Positions 10,711-62,237 of a DNA stretch of 64,000 bases are shown in pieces. The stretch is from NCBI GenBank assembly GCA_016187945.1, contig JACPIT010000005.1:372001-436000 (forward strand), read 5' to 3'. Below the pieces are notes generated by a model. It was not told where the DNA came from, searched no databases, and saw nothing but the letters and a program-made list of their open reading frames with translations. The translations under genes and the position numbers were made by a program. The DNA is from Opitutia bacterium (lineage in GTDB: Bacteria > Verrucomicrobiota > Verrucomicrobiia > Opitutales > Opitutaceae). Every line of letters begins with the position of its first letter. Within the stretch, counting starts at the first letter, position 1.

Positions 10711-13700
10711 CTACTCGCGGGCGAGGAGGAACTCCAGCGGGAGGTCGATGCGGGCGGACCAGGATTGCTCGTTGTGCGCGGCGCCGGGGAATTTCTTCGT
10801 CAGCCAGTCGCGGCCTTCGGTGTAGCCGAGCGTGCGCAGGGCGGCGTCCATGCGCTGCTGATACGGTTCGTAGGACGCGTCGAGCGTGGCGGTGCCGAAG
10901 TCGAAATAGAGTCGATGCGCGCCGGCATGCGGGAGGTTTTGCGCGAAGAAGTCGATCGCGCAGCCGTCGCCGATGGGCCAATGAGTCGAGACGCAACCGG
11001 CGGCACCGAAGACGGCGGGATGTTCAGCAAGCGCGTAGGCGGAGATGAGGCCGCCCATGCTCGAGCCCATGATGCTCGTGTGCGTGCGGTCGGGGAGCGT
11101 GCGATAGGTGCGGTCGATGAACGGCTTCAATTCCTCGACGAGAAATTTCAGGTAGGCGTCGGACTTGATCTGCGCGGCGGTGAGGCGCGGGCCGTTGGGC
11201 CAGAGCGGGAGTTCCGGAGCGGTGACGGCTTTGCGCGGCATGTATTCGGGCACGCGGTCGTAGCCGTTGTTCCAAACGCCGACGACGATGGCGCCGCGCG
11301 TTTTGCCTGCGGCGATGAGGCGATGCATCGCCTCGTCGATGCCCCACGTGACGCCGCCGTAGCTGAGGTTGGGGTCGAAGAGATTCTGGCCGTCGTGCAT
11401 GTAGAGCACGGGGTAACGCTCTGCGGCGTTTGCGTCGTAGCCGGGCGGGAGCCAGACGTCGACGTGGCGTGCGCCGGCGAATTGCGACGGGAACGCGGCG
11501 TGCCGCACGAGGCGCGCGGTGCCGACGGTGACGTGCGTTTCGCCGCTGAGCGTGGTGCCGGCGAGGTTGTGCACGGCGACGCGGTAGGAGCCGGTGTGCG
11601 CGGTGACGGCGTGCGGGACGGCGTAGGTGGCGGACGTGGCGCCGCGGAGGAGTTCGCCGTCGCGATACCATTGGTATTCGAGATCGCCGGAGCCGGTGGC
11701 GGCGGCGGTGAGTTTCAGCTCGGCACCGAAGGCGACGGAGATTTTGGCGGGCGGTTGGGCGGTGAAGGTCGGGCACTGCGCGCGCGCGATGCCGAACTGC
11801 ACTTTCGCGGAGGCGGGCGCGACGGTGATGCCGCCGACTCGCGCGGCGGCGAGGTGGCCGCGGAGGTCGTTCACGGTCGCGGTGAATTCGAGTTTCTCGT
11901 CGGGCGCGAGGTCGGCGGGCGGCGTCCAGAAAACGCGATATGGCGGGGCATCGTCGGTGCCGAGCAGCTCGACTTGGCCGGGGCGCGAGGCGCGCGTCAT
12001 CGTGAACGTGACTTCGGCCACGCCGTCGGTGTTCGCGACTTCGGCGCGGATTTCGCGGCGCGAGGGGAAGACGAGGTCGTCGATCTCGCGGGAGCCGAAG
12101 GTGAGGTGCGCGCCGGTGGCGGGCGCGACGAGTGCGATCGTGGGCGCGGTGGCGGGAGCGGCGAGCGGGCGCTCGGCGCGCCAGAGGGCGAATTGCAGCG
12201 GGGCGAGCGTGACGCGGGCGGCGCCGTGGGCGTCGGTGGTGAGGTGGCCCGCGACCTCCGGTCGCGGGGTTTCAGACGATGGCGGCAGCTTATCTGCGCC
12301 GCCGGCCGACCCGCGCCCGGAGGTCGCGGGCCAGCTTGAGTCGAAGAGCGGTGCGAGCGTCGCGCCGGCGGGCTGGCTGGTGGGGACGCTGGCGGTGAGC
12401 GTGGCGGTGCGGGAGTTGTTGAAGACGGCGAGGTATTCGGTGCGTTCGCCGCGCTCGAGGCGCGAGAAGGCGAAGAGGCCGGGCTCGGCGGTGGAGCGCA
12501 GAATCATCGCGCCGGTGCGGAGCGCGGCGTGTTCGCGCCGGAGTTGGCCGAGGCGGGCGAAGAGGCGGTAGAACGGGTGCGTCGGGTCGAACTTGTCGTC
12601 GGCGCCGGTGCGGGTGGTGGCGAGGAGCTGGGCGTTTTTGTAGACGGGCGCTTGCGGGGCGAACATGTCCTCGCGGGCCTGCTGGTCGATGCCGCCGGCG
12701 CCGAGCATGCCTTGTTCGTCGCCGTAGTGGAGCGTGGGCATGCCGCGCACGAAATACATCAGGCCGTGGCCGAGGCGCGCGAGGTCGGCGATCCGGTCGA
12801 GCGGCGCGCCGGGGTTTTCCTGGAGCAGGTAGTAGCCCCAGCGGCCGATGTCGTAGTTGCCGAGGAGCGTGATCGACGAGTGGACGTTGCTGTCGTGGTC
12901 CGTGTAGTAATCGTCGCGGAGAAAAAATTCCTCGAGGGCGGCGGCGGGGCCGCCTTGAGCGACGAATTTCCGCGCGGCGCCGGCGAAGGCGAAGTCGGTC
13001 GTCGAATCGACGGGCATGGTGCCGGTGGAGAACTCGCTGAGGTAGGCGACGTCGCCGGCTTCGTTCATGACTTCGCCGAACTGGATGAAGTCGGCGCGGC
13101 CGAGCGCGCGCGCCTGGGCGCGGAGGGCGGGATTGAAGGCCTGCCAGAAGCCGGCGTTGGCGTGGCGCATGGTGTCGATGCGGAAGCCGTCGACGCCCCA
13201 CCCCAGCCATTGACCGAAGACGTCGATGAAGCCGCGGACGACGCGCGGGTGCTCGGTCATGATGTCGTCGAGGCCCATGAAGTCGCCGAGGACGGCGCTC
13301 TCGCCGGTGAAGGTGCTGTTGCCGCGGTTGTGGTAGAGAGTGGGGTCGTTGAGCCAGTCGGGGTTTTTCGCGTGGGCGAGCTCGGGTGCGATCACGGGGC
13401 GGTAGGCGAAGCTGCGCTCGGCGGAGAGCGCGGGGAATTCCGCCTTCGTCGAGGCTGCGGCGGGGTTCGCGTCGAGGGTCGCGCCGTCACGCGGCGGCGC
13501 GGTGGGCGCAGGCGGGAGGCCGTTGTAGGAGGCGGCGCGCTCGTCGAAGGGCTGGCCGGCGGCGTCGCGGGTCGGTGCGGTCTTGGTGTCGACGTAGGTG
13601 TAGTTGCCGCCGGCGTATTTGATGATGTCGCCGGTGTGGTTGACGACGATGTCGAGATAGACGCGGAAACCGCGCGCGTGCGCCTGCTCGATGAAGGTGC

Positions 13701-14151
13701 GGTATTCGGCGTTGGTGCCGAGGTGTGGATCGACGTTCAGGAAATCGAGCGGCCAGTAGCCGTGGTAGCCGGCGGAGCGGTCGGAGGCTTGGACGGCGTT
13801 GTTCTTGTAGGGAGGCGTCGTCCAGATCGTGGAGACGTTCAGGCCCTGGATGTAGTCGAGCTTGCTGGTGAGGCCGGCGAAGTCGCCGCCGTGGTAGTAA
13901 CCGATGCGCGTGGGATCGAAGCCGTTTTCCTCGGGGCCGCCGGGGATGCCGCCGGTGTCGTTCGCCGTGCTGCCGTTGGCGAAGCGGTCCGGCATGAGGA
14001 TGTAGATGGTCTGGCCGGCGCCGGGATGGGTGAAGCGCGGCAGAGCCACCGGTGCGACCGTCTGCGCGCGAGCGCACGGGAACAGAGCGAGAGCGAGCAG
14101 CCAACACGCGGCGCGCGCGCGCCACGGACGAGTCGAGGGGTGAGACATCAT
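10711..14151 (-). CDS. Secreted GH13 alpha-amylase / Ig-like / esterase fusion
   Basis: A 1146-residue secreted protein joining two enzymes. A signal peptide is followed by a GH13 barrel (about 35-640), with QTIYILMPDRFANG, the nucleophile in GVDGFRIDTMRH (Asp326), the acid/base in FGEVMNEAGD (Glu360) and GNYDIGR for the third acidic residue. A beta-rich stretch and an Ig-like domain (about 800-890; YQWYRDGELL, GSYRVAVHN) lead to an esterase-D-like hydrolase with YPVLYMHDGQNLFD and the nucleophile elbow GSSMGG (Ser1031). It probably degrades starch-type glucans, with the esterase removing acyl groups or acting on a linked substrate. A palindromic repeat (12245-12333) lies in frame after the barrel. 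ATG 14151 or 14148 starts the signal peptide and is preceded by CCCTCCCC. It is divergent from the receptor gene at 14538. Confidence 0.92.
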   Translation of the reverse strand: MMSHPSTRPWRARAACWLLALALFPCARAQTVAPVALPRFTHPGAGQTIYILMPDRFANGSTANDTGGIPGGPEENGFDPTRIGYYHGGDFAGLTSKLDYIQGLNVSTIWTTPPYKNNAVQASDRSAGYHGYWPLDFLNVDPHLGTNAEYRTFIEQAHARGFRVYLDIVVNHTGDIIKYAGGNYTYVDTKTAPTRDAAGQPFDERAASYNGLPPAPTAPPRDGATLDANPAAASTKAEFPALSAERSFAYRPVIAPELAHAKNPDWLNDPTLYHNRGNSTFTGESAVLGDFMGLDDIMTEHPRVVRGFIDVFGQWLGWGVDGFRIDTMRHANAGFWQAFNPALRAQARALGRADFIQFGEVMNEAGDVAYLSEFSTGTMPVDSTTDFAFAGAARKFVAQGGPAAALEEFFLRDDYYTDHDSNVHSSITLLGNYDIGRWGYYLLQENPGAPLDRIADLARLGHGLMYFVRGMPTLHYGDEQGMLGAGGIDQQAREDMFAPQAPVYKNAQLLATTRTGADDKFDPTHPFYRLFARLGQLRREHAALRTGAMILRSTAEPGLFAFSRLERGERTEYLAVFNNSRTATLTASVPTSQPAGATLAPLFDSSWPATSGRGSAGGADKLPPSSETPRPEVAGHLTTDAHGAARVTLAPLQFALWRAERPLAAPATAPTIALVAPATGAHLTFGSREIDDLVFPSRREIRAEVANTDGVAEVTFTMTRASRPGQVELLGTDDAPPYRVFWTPPADLAPDEKLEFTATVNDLRGHLAAARVGGITVAPASAKVQFGIARAQCPTFTAQPPAKISVAFGAELKLTAAATGSGDLEYQWYRDGELLRGATSATYAVPHAVTAHTGSYRVAVHNLAGTTLSGETHVTVGTARLVRHAAFPSQFAGARHVDVWLPPGYDANAAERYPVLYMHDGQNLFDPNLSYGGVTWGIDEAMHRLIAAGKTRGAIVVGVWNNGYDRVPEYMPRKAVTAPELPLWPNGPRLTAAQIKSDAYLKFLVEELKPFIDRTYRTLPDRTHTSIMGSSMGGLISAYALAEHPAVFGAAGCVSTHWPIGDGCAIDFFAQNLPHAGAHRLYFDFGTATLDASYEPYQQRMDAALRTLGYTEGRDWLTKKFPGAAHNEQSWSARIDLPLEFLLARE
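12245..12333. repeat. Palindromic repeat inside the amylase-esterase coding sequence
   Basis: Sixteen-base perfect inverted arms (TGGCCCGCGACCTCCG at 12245-12260 and its inverse at 12318-12333) enclose 57 bp, all translated in frame. The encoded segment is Gly/Ser/Pro-rich (SGRGSAGGADKLPPSS and following). Nineteen bases of it (12310-12328) recur inverted inside the GH20 gene at 56399-56417. Confidence 0.85.
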
Positions 14152-17374: not shown

Positions 17375-17420
17375 CATCTCCGCCGTCTGCTTCATTTATC
17401 GCGCATGTCCTCCTCTGTTT

Positions 17421-17498
17421 GTCATCGCGAGCCCGACGTAGTCGGGCGTGGCGATCCAGCTAGCTGGATTGCTTCGTCGCTGCGCTCCTCGCAATGAC
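17421..17498. repeat. Dispersed repeat, 'GTCATCGCGAG...CTCGCAATGAC' family
   Basis: A 78-bp element that reads GTCATCGCGAGCCCGAC at one end and CTCCTCGCAATGAC at the other, with an internal GCCCGAC/GTCGGGC stem. Relatives are at 43111-43211 and, inverted, at 55581-55658. This type of element is common in unrelated genomes. Confidence 0.85.
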
Positions 17499-17533
17499 AC
17501 GGCAAGGGTGCTGAGTTTTCGTGCGACACTGCC

Positions 17534-17595: not shown

Positions 17596-20106
17596 GTGCG
17601 TCTCCTCGTGTGCGCCCTCGCTAGTTCGCTCCTCGTCAGCCACGCCGTCATCCTCGCGGCCGACCAAACCTCGCTGCAACCGATCGGCGCCGTCGCGTCG
17701 ACCGCCCGCACCGTGCAAGGCGTCTCGCTCACCGCCGCCGATGGCTCGACCGTCGCCGTGAGCATTCTCGCGCCGGACCTCGTCCGCGTGCGCACGCTAT
17801 TCGCCGGACAAAAGCCCGCGCTCGATCACTCCTGGGCCATCTCGAAGACCGACTGGCCCGCCACGCCCTTCCAGTTTTCCGAGGACGCCGCCGCCGTCAC
17901 GCTCACGACCGCCGAACTGAAAATCGTCATCGCGCGCGACCCGCTCCTCATCGAATTCCGCGACGCCGCCACCGGCCGCGTGCTCAACGCCGACGCCCGC
18001 CCCATGGCGCGCGATCCGCAAACCGGCGCCGTCGGCACCGCCAAGAAACTTGGCTACGAAGAACACTTCTACGGCCTCGGCGAAAAAGCCGCGCGCCTCG
18101 ACAAGCGCCGCGGCAAGTTCGTCATGTGGACCTCCGACACGCCCGGCTACGTCGAAGGCACCGACCCGATTTATCAGAGCATTCCGTTCTACGTCGGCCT
18201 CGAAGCCGGCGTCGCTTACGGCCTTTTCTACGACAACGCCTGGCGCTCCACCTTCGAGTTCGGCCACCTCACGCAGGAATCGGCCAACTACACCGCCGAC
18301 GGCGGCGAGCTGAACTACTATTTCTTCGCCGGCCCCTCGCTGAAGAAAGTCGTCAGCCGCTACACCGAGCTCACCGGCCGCATGCCGCTGCCGCCGCTCT
18401 GGTCGCTCGGCCACCAGCAGAGCCGCTACAGCTATTATCCCGACAAGCTCGTCGAACACATCGCGCAGCAATACCGCGCGCACGACCTGCCGCTCGACGT
18501 GCTCTACTTGGACATCCACTACATGGACGGCTACCGCGTCTTCACGTGGGACAAGTCGCGCTTCCCCGACCCCGCCGCCATGACGCGCCGCCTCGCCGAG
18601 CAAGGCATCCGCGTCGTCACGATCATCGACCCCGGCGTGAAGCACGAACCCGACGGCCGCGCTGCCGAAGGTAGGGCGGGACCGCTGGGCCCGCCGAGCC
18701 CGTCGCAAAACGCCGCCTCCGCAAACACCGCCTCCGCCCGCTACTCCGTCTACGACGAAGGCGCGAAGCACGACTTCTTCCTCCGCCAGACCGACGGCTC
18801 CGTCTACGTCGGCGAAGTCTGGCCCGGCAAAGCCGTGTTCGTCGACTACACGAAGGAAGACGCGCGCCGCTGGTGGGGCGAGCAACACCGCGCGCTCACC
18901 GACGTCGGCATCGCCGGCATCTGGACCGACATGAACGAGCCCGCCGACTTCCTCGACCCGAGCGGCAAGCGCCACGAAAAAATCCGCTTCGACGACCTCG
19001 GCCAGCACACGCCCTACAACGGCCTGCGAAACACGTTCGCGCTGAACATGACGCGCGCCACCTACGAGGGCCTCCAACGCCTCAAGCCGAACGAGCGCCC
19101 CTTCGTTGTCACGCGCGCCGGCTACGCGGGCATCCAGCGCTACGCCGTGAAGTGGACCGGCGACAACAACGCCACCTTCGCCTCGCTCTCACTCAACGTC
19201 CCGATGTTCGCCTCGCTCGGTCTCAGCGGCGAAGCGTTTGTCGGCGCCGACATCCCGGGCTTCATCGGCCGCGGCGACGGCGAACTGCTCGCGCGCTCGT
19301 ATCAGATCGCGGCCTTCTCGCCGTTCTTCCGCAACCACACCGCGATCGACAGCTACGACAAGGAGCCGTGGCGCTTCGGCCGCACCTACGAGGACATCGC
19401 GCGGAAGTTCATCAAGCTCCGCTACCAGTTCCTGCCGTTCCTCTACACGACGATGGAGGAAGCCTCGCGCACCGGCCTGCCGCTCTTCCGTCCGCTCGTG
19501 CTGAATTTCCAGGACGACGAAAACACCGCGACGATCGACGACCAGTTCATGGTCGGCGACGCGCTGCTCGCCGCGCCCGTCACGCGCGCCGCCCAACGCG
19601 AGCGCGAAGTCTATTTCCCCGCCGGCACCTGGTTCGACTACTGGACCGGCGCGCAACTCGCCGGCGGCGAAACGCGCGTTGTTGCCGCGCCGCTCGATCA
19701 TCTCCCGCTCTACGTGCGCGGCGGCGCGATCGTCCCCTCGACGATCTCGATGAGCCACACCGGCGAAAAGCCGTGGAATCCGCTGCACTTCGACGTCTAT
19801 CCCGACGCGCACGGCGCCGCCACCGGCTCGCTCTACGAAGACGACGGCCTCTCGCCCGCCTACCAAAAAGGCGCGCTGCGCCGCACGACGCTCTCCTACA
19901 CCGACCGCAAGCTCACCCTCGCCGCCGAAGGCGCCTTCCAGCCCGCGGCGCGCACGTTCGAAGTCACCGTGCACGGCGTCGTGGCGAATGCCGTGTTGGT
20001 CGACGGCGTGCCGCTGCCCGCCGACGCGTGGTCGCGCAACGCCGACAATTCCGTCTCGCTCCGCCTCTCCGACAACGGCCACGCCCGCGTCGTCGAACTC
20101 CGCTGA
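17596..20106 (+). CDS. GH31 alpha-glucosidase, exported
   Basis: Releases glucose from the non-reducing ends of alpha-glucans, here probably in the periplasm. The 836 residues include a signal peptide (MRLLVCALASSLLVSHAVILAA), a GH31 beta-rich N-domain, the nucleophile in IWTDMNEP (Asp445) and the acid/base in KWTGDNNATF (Asp523). GTG 17596 is preferred because it directly starts the signal peptide; GTG 17521 would translate a dispersed repeat. Between VKHEPDG and RYSVYDEG there is an extra stretch of about 30 residues (AAEGRAGPLGPPSPS and an Ala/Ser-rich tail) encoded by a palindromic repeat. It is followed by malQ, 218 bp downstream with a REPIN between. Confidence 0.92.
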   Translation: MRLLVCALASSLLVSHAVILAADQTSLQPIGAVASTARTVQGVSLTAADGSTVAVSILAPDLVRVRTLFAGQKPALDHSWAISKTDWPATPFQFSEDAAAVTLTTAELKIVIARDPLLIEFRDAATGRVLNADARPMARDPQTGAVGTAKKLGYEEHFYGLGEKAARLDKRRGKFVMWTSDTPGYVEGTDPIYQSIPFYVGLEAGVAYGLFYDNAWRSTFEFGHLTQESANYTADGGELNYYFFAGPSLKKVVSRYTELTGRMPLPPLWSLGHQQSRYSYYPDKLVEHIAQQYRAHDLPLDVLYLDIHYMDGYRVFTWDKSRFPDPAAMTRRLAEQGIRVVTIIDPGVKHEPDGRAAEGRAGPLGPPSPSQNAASANTASARYSVYDEGAKHDFFLRQTDGSVYVGEVWPGKAVFVDYTKEDARRWWGEQHRALTDVGIAGIWTDMNEPADFLDPSGKRHEKIRFDDLGQHTPYNGLRNTFALNMTRATYEGLQRLKPNERPFVVTRAGYAGIQRYAVKWTGDNNATFASLSLNVPMFASLGLSGEAFVGADIPGFIGRGDGELLARSYQIAAFSPFFRNHTAIDSYDKEPWRFGRTYEDIARKFIKLRYQFLPFLYTTMEEASRTGLPLFRPLVLNFQDDENTATIDDQFMVGDALLAAPVTRAAQREREVYFPAGTWFDYWTGAQLAGGETRVVAAPLDHLPLYVRGGAIVPSTISMSHTGEKPWNPLHFDVYPDAHGAATGSLYEDDGLSPAYQKGALRRTTLSYTDRKLTLAAEGAFQPAARTFEVTVHGVVANAVLVDGVPLPADAWSRNADNSVSLRLSDNGHARVVELR
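18671..18696. repeat. REP-like element inside the GH31 coding sequence
   Basis: Begins GTAGGGCGGGACCGCTGGGC and is translated in frame as part of GRAGPLGPP. All 26 bases are identical to an intergenic copy in the opposite orientation at 33003-33028. It interrupts a loop that in other GH31 enzymes passes directly from the DPGVKHEP segment to YxVYDEG. Confidence 0.9.
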
Positions 20107-43061: not shown

Positions 43062-43110
43062 GGGAGAGAGGCGGTGAGAGGTGTGCTAGTGCGATGACTT
43101 CACTTCGTTT

Positions 43111-43211
43111 GTCATCGCGAGCCCGACGGAGTCGGGCGTGGCGATCGATCGCGCTGGATTGGTTGGCCGATGTCGCCGGCGGCTCGGTAGTCGCTGCGCT
43201 CCTCGCAATGA
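43111..43211. repeat. Dispersed repeat, 'GTCATCGCGAG...CTCGCAATGAC' family, expanded
   Basis: Same ends as 17421-17498 (GTCATCGCGAGCCCGACGG and GCTCCTCGCAATGAC) but about 23 bp longer, because of extra sequence between the GCTGGATTG segment and the right end. It sits in the gap between TonB receptor 2 and GPH 2. Confidence 0.85.
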
Positions 43212-51194: not shown

Positions 51195-51308
51195 ACGGCG
51201 ACGATGCGATCGATCGTCACACCTTCGATGACGACGGTTCGAAAGGTGGAGCGCGTTGAGGTCAACGCGCTCCACCTCGGAACGATCGTTACGTCGGATT
51301 TTTCTGCC

Positions 51309-53291
51309 ATGAAGTTCCCTGCCCTGCTCCTCGCCGCCTGCGCGGCGCTGTTTTTCCTCGCACCCGCCTCGCGCGCCGCCGAACTGCCCGGCGGACGCCG
51401 CGCGCTGAACCTCGAACTCGACGGCCGCTGGATCGGCAACGCCGTTTCCTTCAGCCCCTATCGCGACGGCCAGCGCCCGGAGGAAGTCGCGCCGAGCGAT
51501 GCCGAGATCCTCGCCGACCTCCGTCTCGTTTCGCGTTACTGGAATCTGATTCGCACCTATGACAGCAGCGACGTGACCGCGCGCACGCTGCGGCTCATCC
51601 GCGAAAATCGCCTGCCCTTGCGCGTGATGATCGGCGCGTGGGTCTCCGCCGAGCCGAAAGGGCGTGAGCAAAACCGCAGTGAACTCGCGAACATCGTGCG
51701 GCTGGCGAACGAGTTTCCCGACATCGTGATCGCCGCCGCCGTCGGCAACGAGGCTTGCGTGTGGTGGTCGGGCCATCGCGTCGATCCGGCGCTGCTCGTC
51801 GGCTGGATTCGCCAGGTGCGCGCCGCGATCAAGCAGCCGGTGACGAGCGCCGACGACTACAACTTCTGGAACAAGGACGAGTCGCGCGCCGTCGCGGCCG
51901 AGTTGGATTTCATCGTGCTGCACGGTTACGCGCTCTGGAACGGCCGACCGCTCTCCGAGGGCATCTCGTGGCTCGAGCAGCAATACGACGCCGCGACGCG
52001 CTTCCACCCCGGCATCCCGATCGTCATCGGCGAAACCGGTTGGACGACGAGCCGCGACCCGTCGCGCACGAAGGTCGGCGAGGAAGGCTACATGATGAAA
52101 GCCGAGGTGTCCGTCGCGGCGCAGGAAGACTATCTTCGCCAGCACTTCCGCTGGGTGCGCGCGCGGCGCGTGCCGACATTCCTCTTCGAGGCCTTCGACG
52201 AAAACTGGAAGGGCGGCGGCGTAGCGGTCGCGCCGCACGCTTCCGAGAAACACTGGGGCGTGTTCGATGCGCAGCGTCGGCCGAAGCCGTCGTTCGAGGC
52301 GATCATCCGCGAATTTTATCCGGAGGAGGCGAAACTCGCCGGCGGCCCGCGCCCGCTGAACCTCGACCTCGACGGCCGCTGGATCGGCAACGGCATTTCG
52401 TTCAGCCCGTATCGCAACGGCCAGGCGCCTTACGGCAAGGAACCGACCGACGACGAAATCCTCGCCGACCTGCGCCTCGTCGCGCGCTATTGGAATTTCA
52501 TTCGCATGTATGAGGCGACGAGCGTCACCGAGCGCACCGTGCGCCTCATCCACGAGCACCAACTCCCGCTGCGCGCGATCGTCGGCGCGTGGGTCGTGAC
52601 GAACGACACGCCGGAGCACCAGCAGCGCAACCGCGACGAACTCGCGCTCGTCACTCGCGTGGCCAACGCCTACCCCGACGTCGTGCTCGCCGTCGCCGTT
52701 GGCAACGAAGCGTGCGTCTCCTGGTCGTGGCACCGCACCGATCCCGCCGACGTCGCCCGCTGGGCGCGCGAAGTGCGCGCGGCCATCAAGCAGCCCGTCA
52801 CCGTGGCCGACGACTACAACTTCTGGAACAAGCCCGAGTCGCAGGCCGTCGCCGCCGAACTCGATTTCATCATCCTGCACGGCTACGCGCTCTGGAACAG
52901 CCGCCCGCTCTCCGAGTGCATGTCGTGGCTGGAACAGCAATACGACGCCACCGTGCGCCACCACCCGGGCAAGCCCGTCATCATCGGCGAAACCGGTTGG
53001 GCCACGAGCTTCGATCCGACGCGCAACAAACCCGGCGAGGAGGGCGCGCTGATGAAGGCAGAAGTCTCCGTCGCCGCGCAGGAGCACTACCTGCGCGAGC
53101 ACTACCGCTGGGTCGCGGCGAAACGCATCCCGACGATTCTTTTCGAGGCCTTCGACGAAAACTGGAAAGGCGGCGGCGAGAAGACGCCGGCTCACGTCGT
53201 CGAGAAACACTGGGGCGTGTTCGACACGCAGCGGCGCCCGAAATCCTCGTTTGCGGCGATCGTCCGCGAGTTCTATTCTGCGCAACCATGA
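51309..53291 (+). CDS. Exported protein with two tandem GH17 domains
   Basis: A 660-residue exported protein with a signal peptide (MKFPALLLAACAALFFLAPA) and two complete, similar GH17 beta-1,3-glucanase domains (about 30-335 and 345-655). Each has acid/base VGNEAC (Glu148 and Glu467) and nucleophile IGETGW (Glu242 and Glu561), as well as DDYNFWNK, LDFI(V/I)LHGYALWN and FEAFDENWKGGG repeats. The two halves are much closer to each other than to typical GH17 proteins, indicating internal duplication. ATG 51309 starts the signal peptide. The gene overlaps the GH89 gene by 4 bp (ATGA). It probably acts on beta-1,3-glucan as hydrolase or transglucosylase. Confidence 0.92.
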   Translation: MKFPALLLAACAALFFLAPASRAAELPGGRRALNLELDGRWIGNAVSFSPYRDGQRPEEVAPSDAEILADLRLVSRYWNLIRTYDSSDVTARTLRLIRENRLPLRVMIGAWVSAEPKGREQNRSELANIVRLANEFPDIVIAAAVGNEACVWWSGHRVDPALLVGWIRQVRAAIKQPVTSADDYNFWNKDESRAVAAELDFIVLHGYALWNGRPLSEGISWLEQQYDAATRFHPGIPIVIGETGWTTSRDPSRTKVGEEGYMMKAEVSVAAQEDYLRQHFRWVRARRVPTFLFEAFDENWKGGGVAVAPHASEKHWGVFDAQRRPKPSFEAIIREFYPEEAKLAGGPRPLNLDLDGRWIGNGISFSPYRNGQAPYGKEPTDDEILADLRLVARYWNFIRMYEATSVTERTVRLIHEHQLPLRAIVGAWVVTNDTPEHQQRNRDELALVTRVANAYPDVVLAVAVGNEACVSWSWHRTDPADVARWAREVRAAIKQPVTVADDYNFWNKPESQAVAAELDFIILHGYALWNSRPLSECMSWLEQQYDATVRHHPGKPVIIGETGWATSFDPTRNKPGEEGALMKAEVSVAAQEHYLREHYRWVAAKRIPTILFEAFDENWKGGGEKTPAHVVEKHWGVFDTQRRPKSSFAAIVREFYSAQP

Positions 53292-55558: not shown

Positions 55559-55580
55559 AGACCTTGTGTTTCGGTGGCTT

Positions 55581-55658
55581 GTTATTGCGAGGAGCGAAGC
55601 GACGAAGCAATCCAACGAGATGGATCGCCACGCCCGACTGCGTCGGGCTCGCGATGAC
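55581..55658. repeat. Dispersed repeat, 'GTTATTGCGAGG...GCGATGAC' family, inverted copy
   Basis: A 78-bp element that reads GTTATTGCGAGGAGCGAAGC at the left and GTCGGGCTCGCGATGAC at the right, i.e. the inverse of the copies at 17421 and 43111. It lies between the GH89 and GH20 genes. Confidence 0.88.
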
Positions 55659-55687
55659 AGTTAAAAGGTGATGCCCTGACGTCCGAA

Positions 55688-57877
55688 ATGAAACTTTCCG
55701 CTCGGTTATTCATGAGCGCTTGCGCCGCCTCTCTCGGAATTTCGTTCGCCTCCGCTGCGCCCGCGCTGATGCCGTGGCCGGCACACGTCGAGTGGCACGA
55801 GGGTGAGCTGCCGATCGCCGCGGAGTTTCGCGTGCGCATCGCCGGCCATGACGATGCGCGGTTGCGCGCCGGCATCGGGCGCGCACTCGACCGGCTCGAG
55901 AAACGCACCGAGCTGAACTTCGGGCCGCGCTATGCGACCGAAGGCGGCACGCTTGTCGTGACGTGCGCCGCGGCCGGCTCGGCGATTCCGCGGCTCGGCG
56001 ACGACGAATCCTACACGCTCGAAGTCCGCAGCGGCAGCGCCGAGTTGCGCTCGCCGAATGTCGTGGGTGCGCTGCGTGGACTGGAGACGTTTTTGCAGTT
56101 GGTGGAGGCGCGGTTCGACGTAGCGCAGGCGTCTCGCCTGCCTGCTTTCGCGGCGGGGTGCGTCGTGATCCGCGACGCGCCGCGTTTCCCGTGGCGCGGA
56201 CTGATGATCGACGTCGCGCGGCACTTTCAGCCGCCGGAAGTGCTGCACCGCAATCTCGACGCCATGGCGGCGGTGAAACTCAACGTTCTCCACCTCCACC
56301 TGACCGACGACCAGGGCTTCCGCATCGAGAGCAAGCGGCACCCCGAGTTACCTGCGGTGAGCGCAGACGGCGCGTCGATTGGCGCGAGCGAGGAGGCTCG
56401 CGACCTCCGGGCGCGGGCAAACCCGTCCGCGGAGCGGCCGGGCCACCATTCGGGCGACGTGCTCACGCAGGAGCAGATCAAGGCGCTGATCGCCGCGGCG
56501 GCCGAACGCGGCATCCGCGTCGTGCCGGAGTTCGACGTGCCGGGTCACACGACCGCGTGGCTCGCGTCGCACCCGGAGATCGCGAGCGCGCCGGGGCCGC
56601 ATGCGGTCGCGCGGCGCTGGGGTGTGCTCGACGACGTGATGGACCCGACGCTCCCGGAGACGCACGCGCTGCTCGAATCGTTTTTCGGCGAGATGGCGGC
56701 GCTGTTTCCCGACGAGTTTTTCCACATCGGCGGCGACGAGAACAACGGCAAGCAGTGGAACGCGAGCGCGCGGATTGCGGCCTTCAAGCGTGAGCGCGGC
56801 CTCGCCACGAACGAGGCGCTGCACGCCTGGTTCAACCAACAGTTGGCGGTGCTGCTCGCGCAGCACGGCAAGCGGCTCGTCGGCTGGGACGAGGTGCTTC
56901 ACCCGGATTTGCCGCGGAGCGCCGTCGTGCATTCCTGGCGCGGCCCGGAGTCGCTCGCGCGCGCGGCGCAGGAGGGCTTCGCCGGAATTTTGTCCGCGGG
57001 CTACTATCTCGACCTGCACTATCCGGCGGCCGATCACTACGCGGCGGACCCGCTGCCGGAAGGACGGGCGGCGACTCCGCTCGCCGCCGAGCGCGACGGC
57101 GCGGAGCGGAGTCCGCGCCCTACCCTCACGCCGGAGCAGGCCGCGCGCGTGCTCGGGGGTGAAGCGGCGATGTGGACCGAGTGGGCGGACGCGCAGAATT
57201 TCGACTTTCGCGTCTGGCCGCGGGCGGTCGCGGTGGCCGAGCGACTCTGGTCGCCGCGCGAGGTGCGCGATGTCGCCGACATGTATCGCCGGCTGGCGCG
57301 GGTGGACGAACTGCTGGTCGAGACCGGCGTGCAGCATCGCGCGTGGCCGCGGTTCGAGGGATTTTCCGCGGAGGACGCGACGGCTTTGCGCGTGCTGGCG
57401 TCGGCGGTCGAGCCGGTGAAGCGCTATCGGCGTCCGCAGATTCAAAAGGGCGGCGCGGATTTTCCGCTGAACGAACTCGCCGACTGGGCGCATTCGGAGA
57501 GCCGGCCGGCGCGGGAGTTCGCCGAGCGGTTGGACCGCTGGGGCGAGTTACCCGCCGCGGAGAAACGCGCCGCGCTCGACGGAGTCTTGGCGCCGCTCGC
57601 AGCGTGGCGCGCGGCGGCGACACAAGTGGCGGCAATGCCGGCGCCAACGGAGTTCGCGGCGGGTCGAAACGAGACGGCGCGGCGATTGGTGACGCTCTGC
57701 GAGACCGCCGGGAAGGCGTTGCGTGCAGTCGCGAACGACGGACGATTCGCGGCGGAAGAAGCCGCTCAAGCGCGCGAGTTGTTAAAGCGAGCCGCGCAGC
57801 CGACGGCGGCCGCGGTGGAGTTTCCGTTTTTGCCGGCGTTGGAGCGGCTGGTCGCGGCGGCGGAGGTGGCACGATGA
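55688..57877 (+). CDS. GH20 beta-N-acetylhexosaminidase, exported
   Basis: Removes terminal beta-linked GlcNAc or GalNAc by substrate-assisted catalysis. The 729 residues have a signal peptide (cleavage near FASA), an N-terminal GH20b-type domain, then RFPWRGLMIDVARHF, HLHLTDDQGFRIESK, PEFDVPGHTTAWLASHPEI, the catalytic pair in HIGGDENNGK (Asp350-Glu351) and EAAMWTEWADA. It is overlapped by 4 bp by the NagX-like gene downstream. Three palindromic repeat segments lie in frame (56120, 56399 and 57073 regions), each encoding residues that interrupt otherwise conserved family spacing. Confidence 0.94.
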   Translation: MKLSARLFMSACAASLGISFASAAPALMPWPAHVEWHEGELPIAAEFRVRIAGHDDARLRAGIGRALDRLEKRTELNFGPRYATEGGTLVVTCAAAGSAIPRLGDDESYTLEVRSGSAELRSPNVVGALRGLETFLQLVEARFDVAQASRLPAFAAGCVVIRDAPRFPWRGLMIDVARHFQPPEVLHRNLDAMAAVKLNVLHLHLTDDQGFRIESKRHPELPAVSADGASIGASEEARDLRARANPSAERPGHHSGDVLTQEQIKALIAAAAERGIRVVPEFDVPGHTTAWLASHPEIASAPGPHAVARRWGVLDDVMDPTLPETHALLESFFGEMAALFPDEFFHIGGDENNGKQWNASARIAAFKRERGLATNEALHAWFNQQLAVLLAQHGKRLVGWDEVLHPDLPRSAVVHSWRGPESLARAAQEGFAGILSAGYYLDLHYPAADHYAADPLPEGRAATPLAAERDGAERSPRPTLTPEQAARVLGGEAAMWTEWADAQNFDFRVWPRAVAVAERLWSPREVRDVADMYRRLARVDELLVETGVQHRAWPRFEGFSAEDATALRVLASAVEPVKRYRRPQIQKGGADFPLNELADWAHSESRPAREFAERLDRWGELPAAEKRAALDGVLAPLAAWRAAATQVAAMPAPTEFAAGRNETARRLVTLCETAGKALRAVANDGRFAAEEAAQARELLKRAAQPTAAAVEFPFLPALERLVAAAEVAR
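56120..56141. repeat. REP-like element in GH20 coding sequence (first)
   Basis: GTAG followed by the palindrome GCAGGCG-tct-CGCCTGC, translated as VAQASRLPA just before the VVIRDAPRFPWRG segment. Confidence 0.8.
56399..56450. repeat. REP-like element in GH20 coding sequence (second)
   Basis: CGCGACCTCCGGGCGCGGG (56399-56417) is identical, inverted, to 12310-12328 inside the amylase-esterase gene. The segment is translated as RDLRARANPSAERPGHHSGD, a stretch not expected between the DDQGFRIES and QIKALIAAAAERG segments of GH20. Confidence 0.8.
57073..57124. repeat. REP-like element in GH20 coding sequence (third)
   Basis: The arms GACTCCGCTC and GAGCGGAGTC are perfect over 10 bp and are followed by GCGCCCTACC, the inverse of a GGTAGGGCGC tip. 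It is translated as about 20 residues (RAATPLAAERDGAERSPRP) before LTPEQAARVLGGEAAMW. Confidence 0.8.
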
Positions 57878-61757: not shown

Positions 61758-62237
61758 TCAGGCGGCGGCGCCGGGCTGGATGTGGAAGGCGACGTTGAAG
61801 CGGTTCCAGCCGTTGATGACGACGATCGCCAGCGTGAGGTGGAAGAGTTCCTTTTCGGAGAAATGCGCGCGGGCTTCGGCGAAGATTTCGGCGGAGACGC
61901 CGTGTTCGCCGAGGCGGGTGACGGCTTCGGTCCAGCGGAGAGCGGCGCGTTCGCGCGGCGTGTAGCAGGAGACTTCCTCCCAGGCGGGCAGGAGTGCGAG
62001 GCGCTCGTCGGTCTCGCCGCCGGCTTTGGCGTCGCGGAAATGCATGTCGAGGCAGAAGCCGCAGCGGTTGAGCTGCGAGGCGCGCAGGCGGACGAGATCG
62101 AGCAAGCCGCGGTCGAGGAGGTTGGCGGCAGGCGATTGCGAGATCGCCAGCATGGCTTCGAGCACTTCGGGCGCGCTGGTGTGCGAGGCGCGCGGCGTGA
62201 TGACGTGGGGAGTTTCGGTGGAGGCGGTGGTTTTCAT
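61758..62237 (-). CDS. Carboxymuconolactone decarboxylase/AhpD-like protein (ECF41 partner)
   Basis: A 159-residue, mainly helical protein with the AhpD-type redox motif CGFCLDMH (Cys59, Cys62, His66). Such proteins act as peroxidase-linked or thiol redox enzymes and are one of the standard target genes next to ECF41 sigma factors. The ATG at 62237 is preferred to GTG 62246, because a CGTC element of a probable ECF41 promoter ends at 62249, so transcription should begin very close to the ATG. The mRNA may be leaderless. The gene forms a two-gene unit with the sigma factor. Confidence 0.9.
   Translation of the reverse strand: MKTTASTETPHVITPRASHTSAPEVLEAMLAISQSPAANLLDRGLLDLVRLRASQLNRCGFCLDMHFRDAKAGGETDERLALLPAWEEVSCYTPRERAALRWTEAVTRLGEHGVSAEIFAEARAHFSEKELFHLTLAIVVINGWNRFNVAFHIQPGAAA

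Follow-up and report, generated by a model that had tools for sequence, protein, structure and literature searches.

The GH20 gene examined here, which lies in the window (the whole 64,000-nucleotide stretch that was analysed), contains three palindromic inserts. A comparison of the sequences indicates that these very probably represent three independent insertions of REP (repetitive palindrome) sequences, very small palindromic elements most likely mobilised by RAYT transposases (Y1/HUH, IS200-like), into a gene that is still in use. The first-pass annotation had reported three palindromic segments in frame within this gene, and they were confirmed as real. Its coordinates were exact for insert 1 (56120–56141), slightly shifted for insert 2 (56399–56450) and too short for insert 3 (57073–57124), the first arm of which had been clipped. 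The positions obtained in the present analysis are listed in Table 1. Two of its further statements were also reproduced: insert 3 ends in CCCTAC, the inverse of the GTAGGG tip, and insert 2 has 19 bp in common with an insert in an amylase-esterase gene (the 19-mer CGCGACCTCCGGGCGCGGG at 12310). The inserts had, however, been treated as members of one family, and three different families were found.

Table 1 Positions of the GH20 gene, its inserts and two other REP-containing sites in the window
Feature	Position	Strand	Characteristics
GH20 beta-N-acetylhexosaminidase gene, host of the three inserts	55688–57877	+	729 aa; PF00728, PF14845, PF02838
Insert 1, single REP GTAGCGCAGGCGTCTCGCCTGC	56120–56141	+	22 bp; perfect 7-bp stem; peptide VAQASRL; net gain 21 bp / 7 aa
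Insert 2, entire net gain	56369–56452	+	84 bp / 28 aa; from alignment to G001 and G007; edges approximate
Insert 2, REP arm 1 GAGGCTCGCGACCTCCGGGCGCGGG	56393–56417	+	family f; consensus GTAGCCCGCGACCTCCGGGCGCGGG; 3 mismatches
Insert 2, REP arm 2 GTGGCCCGGCCGCTCCGCGGACGGG	56422–56446	−	same GTGGCCC tip; own compensated stem
Insert 3, net-gain region	57060–57124	+	54 bp / 18 aa; edges approximate; about 65 nt in place of 11 nt of the empty site
Insert 3, REP arm 1 GGACGGGCGGCGACTCCGCTCGCCGCC	57062–57088	+	tip decayed from GGTAGGGC
Insert 3, REP arm 2 GTAGGGCGCGGACTCCGCTCCGCGCC	57098–57123	−	family b; exact consensus
Family-f REP pair in the amylase-esterase gene (10711–14049, −)	12244–12334		19-mer in common with insert 2; same place in G007 and G001 orthologues
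Intragenic REP GTAGGGCGGGACCGCTGGGCCCGCC in the GH31 gene (17596–20106, +)	18671–18695	+	missing from G007 and G001 orthologues

The gene product was identified by a Pfam profile search (PF00728; E 9e-92, 308 bits), and its nearest solved structure, by sequence, is 6yhh. The Asp-Glu pair of the GH20 catalytic domain is present as D350 and E351, which were invariant among the 47 aligned sequences, and the GGDE motif and the invariant columns are kept in the window protein. Over the whole alignment, this protein is 71% and 69% identical to its orthologues in G001 and G007, respectively. Hereafter, G000 denotes the genome carrying the window, and G001, G006 and G007 denote genomes of the same genus. 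Two other repeats were observed in the window. A longer dispersed repeat (TGTCATCGCGAGCCCGACG...GTCGGGCGTGGCGATCCA...) occurs at 17420–17504, 43110–43169 and 55575–55659, with copies 86–91% alike, and one of its copies lies just upstream of the GH20 gene. In the protein encoded at 51204–53291 (+), a single domain is present twice in tandem; at the DNA level, the two copies lie about 950 bp from each other and are 77–87% alike.

In a multiple alignment of GH20 homologues, the comparison that the first-pass annotation had proposed, the three segments were found to be lineage-specific. The net gains relative to the G001 and G007 orthologues are each a multiple of three and free of stop codons. 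The spacing between the conserved anchors flanking the three sites is 14, 37 and 28 residues in the window protein. Among the 71 homologues, which include those of distant phyla, it is 6 residues at the first site in 67 sequences, 9 at the second in 65 and 10 at the third in 61. An equal-length version of any of the inserts was found in none of the 71. The divergence from G007 in this protein (about 24%) makes the exact junctions, and any deletion of the target, unreadable. The GTAG tip was also considered as a pre-existing target site: neither GTAG nor CTAC occurs at the three empty sites, within the limits that this divergence sets on the test.

The three inserts differ in composition. Insert 1 is a single unit. 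In insert 2, two decayed units of the GTAGCCC/GTGGCCC family face each other head to head, and the tips of both have decayed (GAGG and GTGG); the REP pair makes up 54 of the 84 bp gained, which leaves about 30 bp without an explanation. Two units of the GTAGGGCG family, likewise head to head, form insert 3, one with an intact and the other with a decayed tip, and the 62-nt sequence of this insert gave no match to plasmids. Each of the three family consensuses carries the tetranucleotide GTAG at its hairpin foot; among the window copies, GTAG itself is kept by insert 1 and by one of the two arms of insert 3, and insert 2 has GAGG and GTGG.

Each of the three families is dispersed in the own genome. 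The pattern of the insert-1 family had 48 matches with at most 2 mismatches, and those of the insert-2 family (f) and the insert-3 family (b) had 21 and 41 matches, respectively, with at most 3 mismatches; in no case was a reversed match found. A scan for hairpins with 7-bp stems detected one after GTAGGG at 80 of 289 sites, as compared with 1–4% for scrambled or altered hexamers. The stems of the GTAGGG families are 8 bp long and thus below the reach of a scan for stems of at least 9 bp. A survey of a contiguous 840 kb (15% of the genome, the window included) revealed 245 REP units of 22–26 bp in 149 elements, of which 66 were single and 73 paired, and the reversed consensus of the searched families had no match there. 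When genes were predicted with a custom codon-usage caller rather than a standard annotator, 120 of the 149 elements were intergenic and 18 were inside predicted genes. Because genes span about 80% of this sequence, selection acts strongly against REPs that enter genes, although such insertions are not rare in absolute terms.

The first-pass annotation had also suggested that the family can evolve stop-free frames, and this was not borne out. Of the eight REP consensus units, seven can already be read through in five of the six frames, and the other in four; the stop that they share is the TAG within GTAG, which affects one frame. Moreover, whole intergenic elements show no excess of open frames: their mean is 4.11, and random sequences of equal length have 4.40 when taken from intergenic DNA and 4.81 when taken from the genome at large. 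Evolution towards open frames is neither needed nor seen in these REPs.

Genes that may encode the mobilising enzymes were found in the genus. The own genome contains 8 Y1_Tnp genes and 12 matches to NCBIfam NF047646 (REP_Tyr_transpos), giving about 12 RAYT-like genes, and four of these were seen to be flanked by inverted GTAG REPs, namely, those of families d (L041), g (L042), i (L044) and c2 (L258). At L039, L040, L043, L045 and L046, the flanking inverted repeats are of other types. The insert-1 family (e) flanks a RAYT in the congener G006 (G006:C219), and family f flanks one in the congener G007 (G007:C1:2633878), where the differences between the two copies around the gene are matched across the stem. 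Family b is tied to a RAYT only through its sister family i, which flanks the RAYT of L044 and whose units pair with those of family b, for example at 61993–62063 of the 840-kb stretch. At L040 (G000:C10:319263–322505), the RAYT open frame seems to take in the flanking palindrome at both ends, where the peptides AGVPAG...DVGAP and TGVLAG...DVGAP are encoded.

REPs are also present in other genes, two of which lie in the window (Table 1). In the amylase-esterase gene, the arms of the REP pair are nearly identical in G000, G007 and G001, while the spacer differs. Arm 1 is read as WPATSGRGS in G000 and as SPRPPGAGS in G007, that is, in different frames; it is therefore not the peptide that has been conserved, and the DNA hairpin has outlived it. 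This site holds either a shared element with compensating shifts or the products of two separate strikes. As for the GH31 gene, its G007 orthologue was observed to contain a palindromic pair of another kind, at a position other than that of the G000 REP. Further intragenic REPs were found in the conserved genes for MiaB, PrmB, a SpoU-type methylase and rhamnulokinase. The MiaB protein, with a compound insert of 32 residues, scores above the curated equivalog cut-off and is 95% identical to that of G007 outside the insert.

The share of REPs among long insertions was examined with a single gene caller and a single aligner in 351 pairs of G000 and G007 orthologues, which give about 125,000 residues in alignment, with polarity checked against G001 only where G001 covers the gene. 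Seventeen in-frame insertions of at least 12 aa were found in G000 relative to G007. Seven of them coincide at least partly with a listed REP unit, another, at 257609, was recognised by eye as a GTAGGGCC...GGCCCTAC pair, and four more have period-7 repeats (match 0.71 to 0.95), one of which passed the preset 0.81. G007, in turn, has 4 such insertions relative to G000, and 2 of them consist of paired copies of the palindrome GTGGGAGCGAGCTTGCTCGCGAC. From these alignments, we estimate that REPs make up about half of the long in-frame insertions between the two congeners. A tentative, rather doubtful reading is that REPs are a main source of long new protein segments in the genus and that the palindrome is kept or renewed at the DNA level within genes regardless of frame; the REP pair of the amylase-esterase gene gives a hint of this.

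Some features of these repeats were noted in passing. Of the 7 copies of the GTGGGAGCGAGCTTGCTCGCGAC palindrome in 800 kb of G007, 5 are intragenic by gene prediction, which is an unusually high proportion. In-frame arrays of heptanucleotides (ACTTGNN, TCAACYC, GGTCAGC and AATCCAG; period 7) occur within G000 genes, at G000:C9 14539, 565380, 565662 and 568979, and at 527193 inside the MiaB insert; an array of the CTCTCAA type is found in genes of both G000 and G007. These arrays were considered as a possible cause of the GH20 inserts and set aside, as they constitute a second repeat class different from the GH20 segments.

We suppose that a RAYT would act on single-stranded REP hairpins, cutting this DNA and joining it into the GH20 gene. 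Insertions that were out of frame, carried a stop or damaged the protein would then be lost, and the surviving REPs would occupy loops that can accommodate additional residues. The peptides added in this way are most probably neutral or of slight cost to the protein. Other origins of the inserts should be weighed against this scheme. Codon bias, which the first-pass annotation had named as a possible source of the palindromes, does produce short GC-rich stems easily at 66% GC, and the control hexamers are followed by hairpins at the rate of 1–4% given above; nevertheless, the existence of exact family consensus copies elsewhere, the lack of reversed matches and the clean gaps in all orthologues leave this explanation practically no chance of being correct. 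It is also very unlikely that the gene has turned into a pseudogene in decay, where selection against insertions has ceased. Outside the inserts, the gene does evolve somewhat faster than the median gene (identity 0.76 vs 0.85; pN/pS 0.35 vs 0.25), and it has received three insertions; the 729-codon frame is, however, open, all three net gains are in frame, pN/pS is well under 1, and the catalytic GGDE and the invariant columns are retained. As judged from these values, which place the gene at the 25th percentile of identity, the protein is constrained, yet looser than most, and this supports the tolerance of inserts.

The first-pass annotation had left it undecided whether the gene tolerates or attracts such elements. 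Tolerance is plausible, in agreement with the purifying selection and the kept GGDE motif, while attraction is unproven. According to the latter, the gene would be a preferred target, for instance, owing to a local hairpin or a lagging-strand context, beyond mere tolerance. Three insertions in one gene are indeed somewhat above the expectation from random scatter: when the in-gene elements of the 840-kb sample were scattered by gene length, some gene received at least three in 0.5–0.8% of trials (0.45% with 16 elements and 0.80% with 18). This figure suggests a tolerant gene, but it was computed afterwards for a gene chosen for having three. Furthermore, the inserts come from three families, the empty sites have neither GTAG nor another obvious common motif, and the somewhat fast evolution of the gene favours tolerance, so that we regard attraction as improbable. 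Even less probable is the selection of the inserted peptides for a new enzyme property. The frames that have stayed open after partial decay of the tips in inserts 2 and 3 would fit such selection, but the same peptides occur in unrelated proteins (VAQASRLP in three genes), and the amylase-esterase element, found at the same site in three species, has arm 1 in different frames in G000 and G007. Insertion of mobilised REPs into a tolerant gene is therefore the reading that we prefer.

The REPIN/RAYT systems of Pseudomonas and enterobacteria consist of inverted REP pairs with a GTAG tip and a RAYT gene flanked by its own REPs, and the present elements resemble them in the inverted pairs, the tip and the REP-flanked RAYT genes. 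Typical REPs are mostly extragenic; this also holds here, but the 18 elements inside predicted genes depart from it. In Opitutus terrae, GTAG REPs have been reported in frame within genes, singly or as head-to-head pairs (Di Nocera et al. 2013, PMC3733652). Its number of intragenic GTAG repeats was the highest among the species in that analysis, some genes contained two of them, and GTGG-tipped variants were noted (PMC3733652). The elements described here are likewise GTAG-tipped hairpins, single or paired and in frame within genes, and this parallel points to a possible relation of the host to Opitutaceae. In contrast to that report, three families were found here in one gene, empty sites were seen in congeners, the share of long in-frame insertions is given, and RAYTs beside the insert families were located in the genus. 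Thus, the phenomenon has already been reported for an apparently related bacterium and is not a new kind of element; what is new is the empty sites of congeners, the three families in one gene and the finding that REPs account for about half of the long in-frame insertions.

Rickettsia palindromic elements (RPE) have been described as REP-like (PMC3733652). RPEs lie in frame in genes whose products are probably functional, and the GH20 inserts are similar to them as palindromes in frame within a gene; the conservation of the GH20 protein suggests that it may function as well. This likeness is one of description and not of membership in the RPE families, whose sequences are presumably different. 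RPE-4 and RPE-6 of R. conorii belong to the CGTC class, for which a dedicated transposase was not found (PMC3733652), whereas the GTAG families in this genus flank RAYT genes. In an unrelated organism, mitochondrial protein-coding genes of Nematomorpha are reported to tolerate inverted repeats (PMC6649704), and these palindromes likewise lie inside protein genes.

In-gene REPs are usually described without their ancestral state, and the present analysis provides both filled and empty sites for them in congeners. A transposase-linked repeat system is proposed as the supplier of about half of the long in-frame insertions, and this may help to explain the origin of in-gene palindromes of the Rickettsia type.
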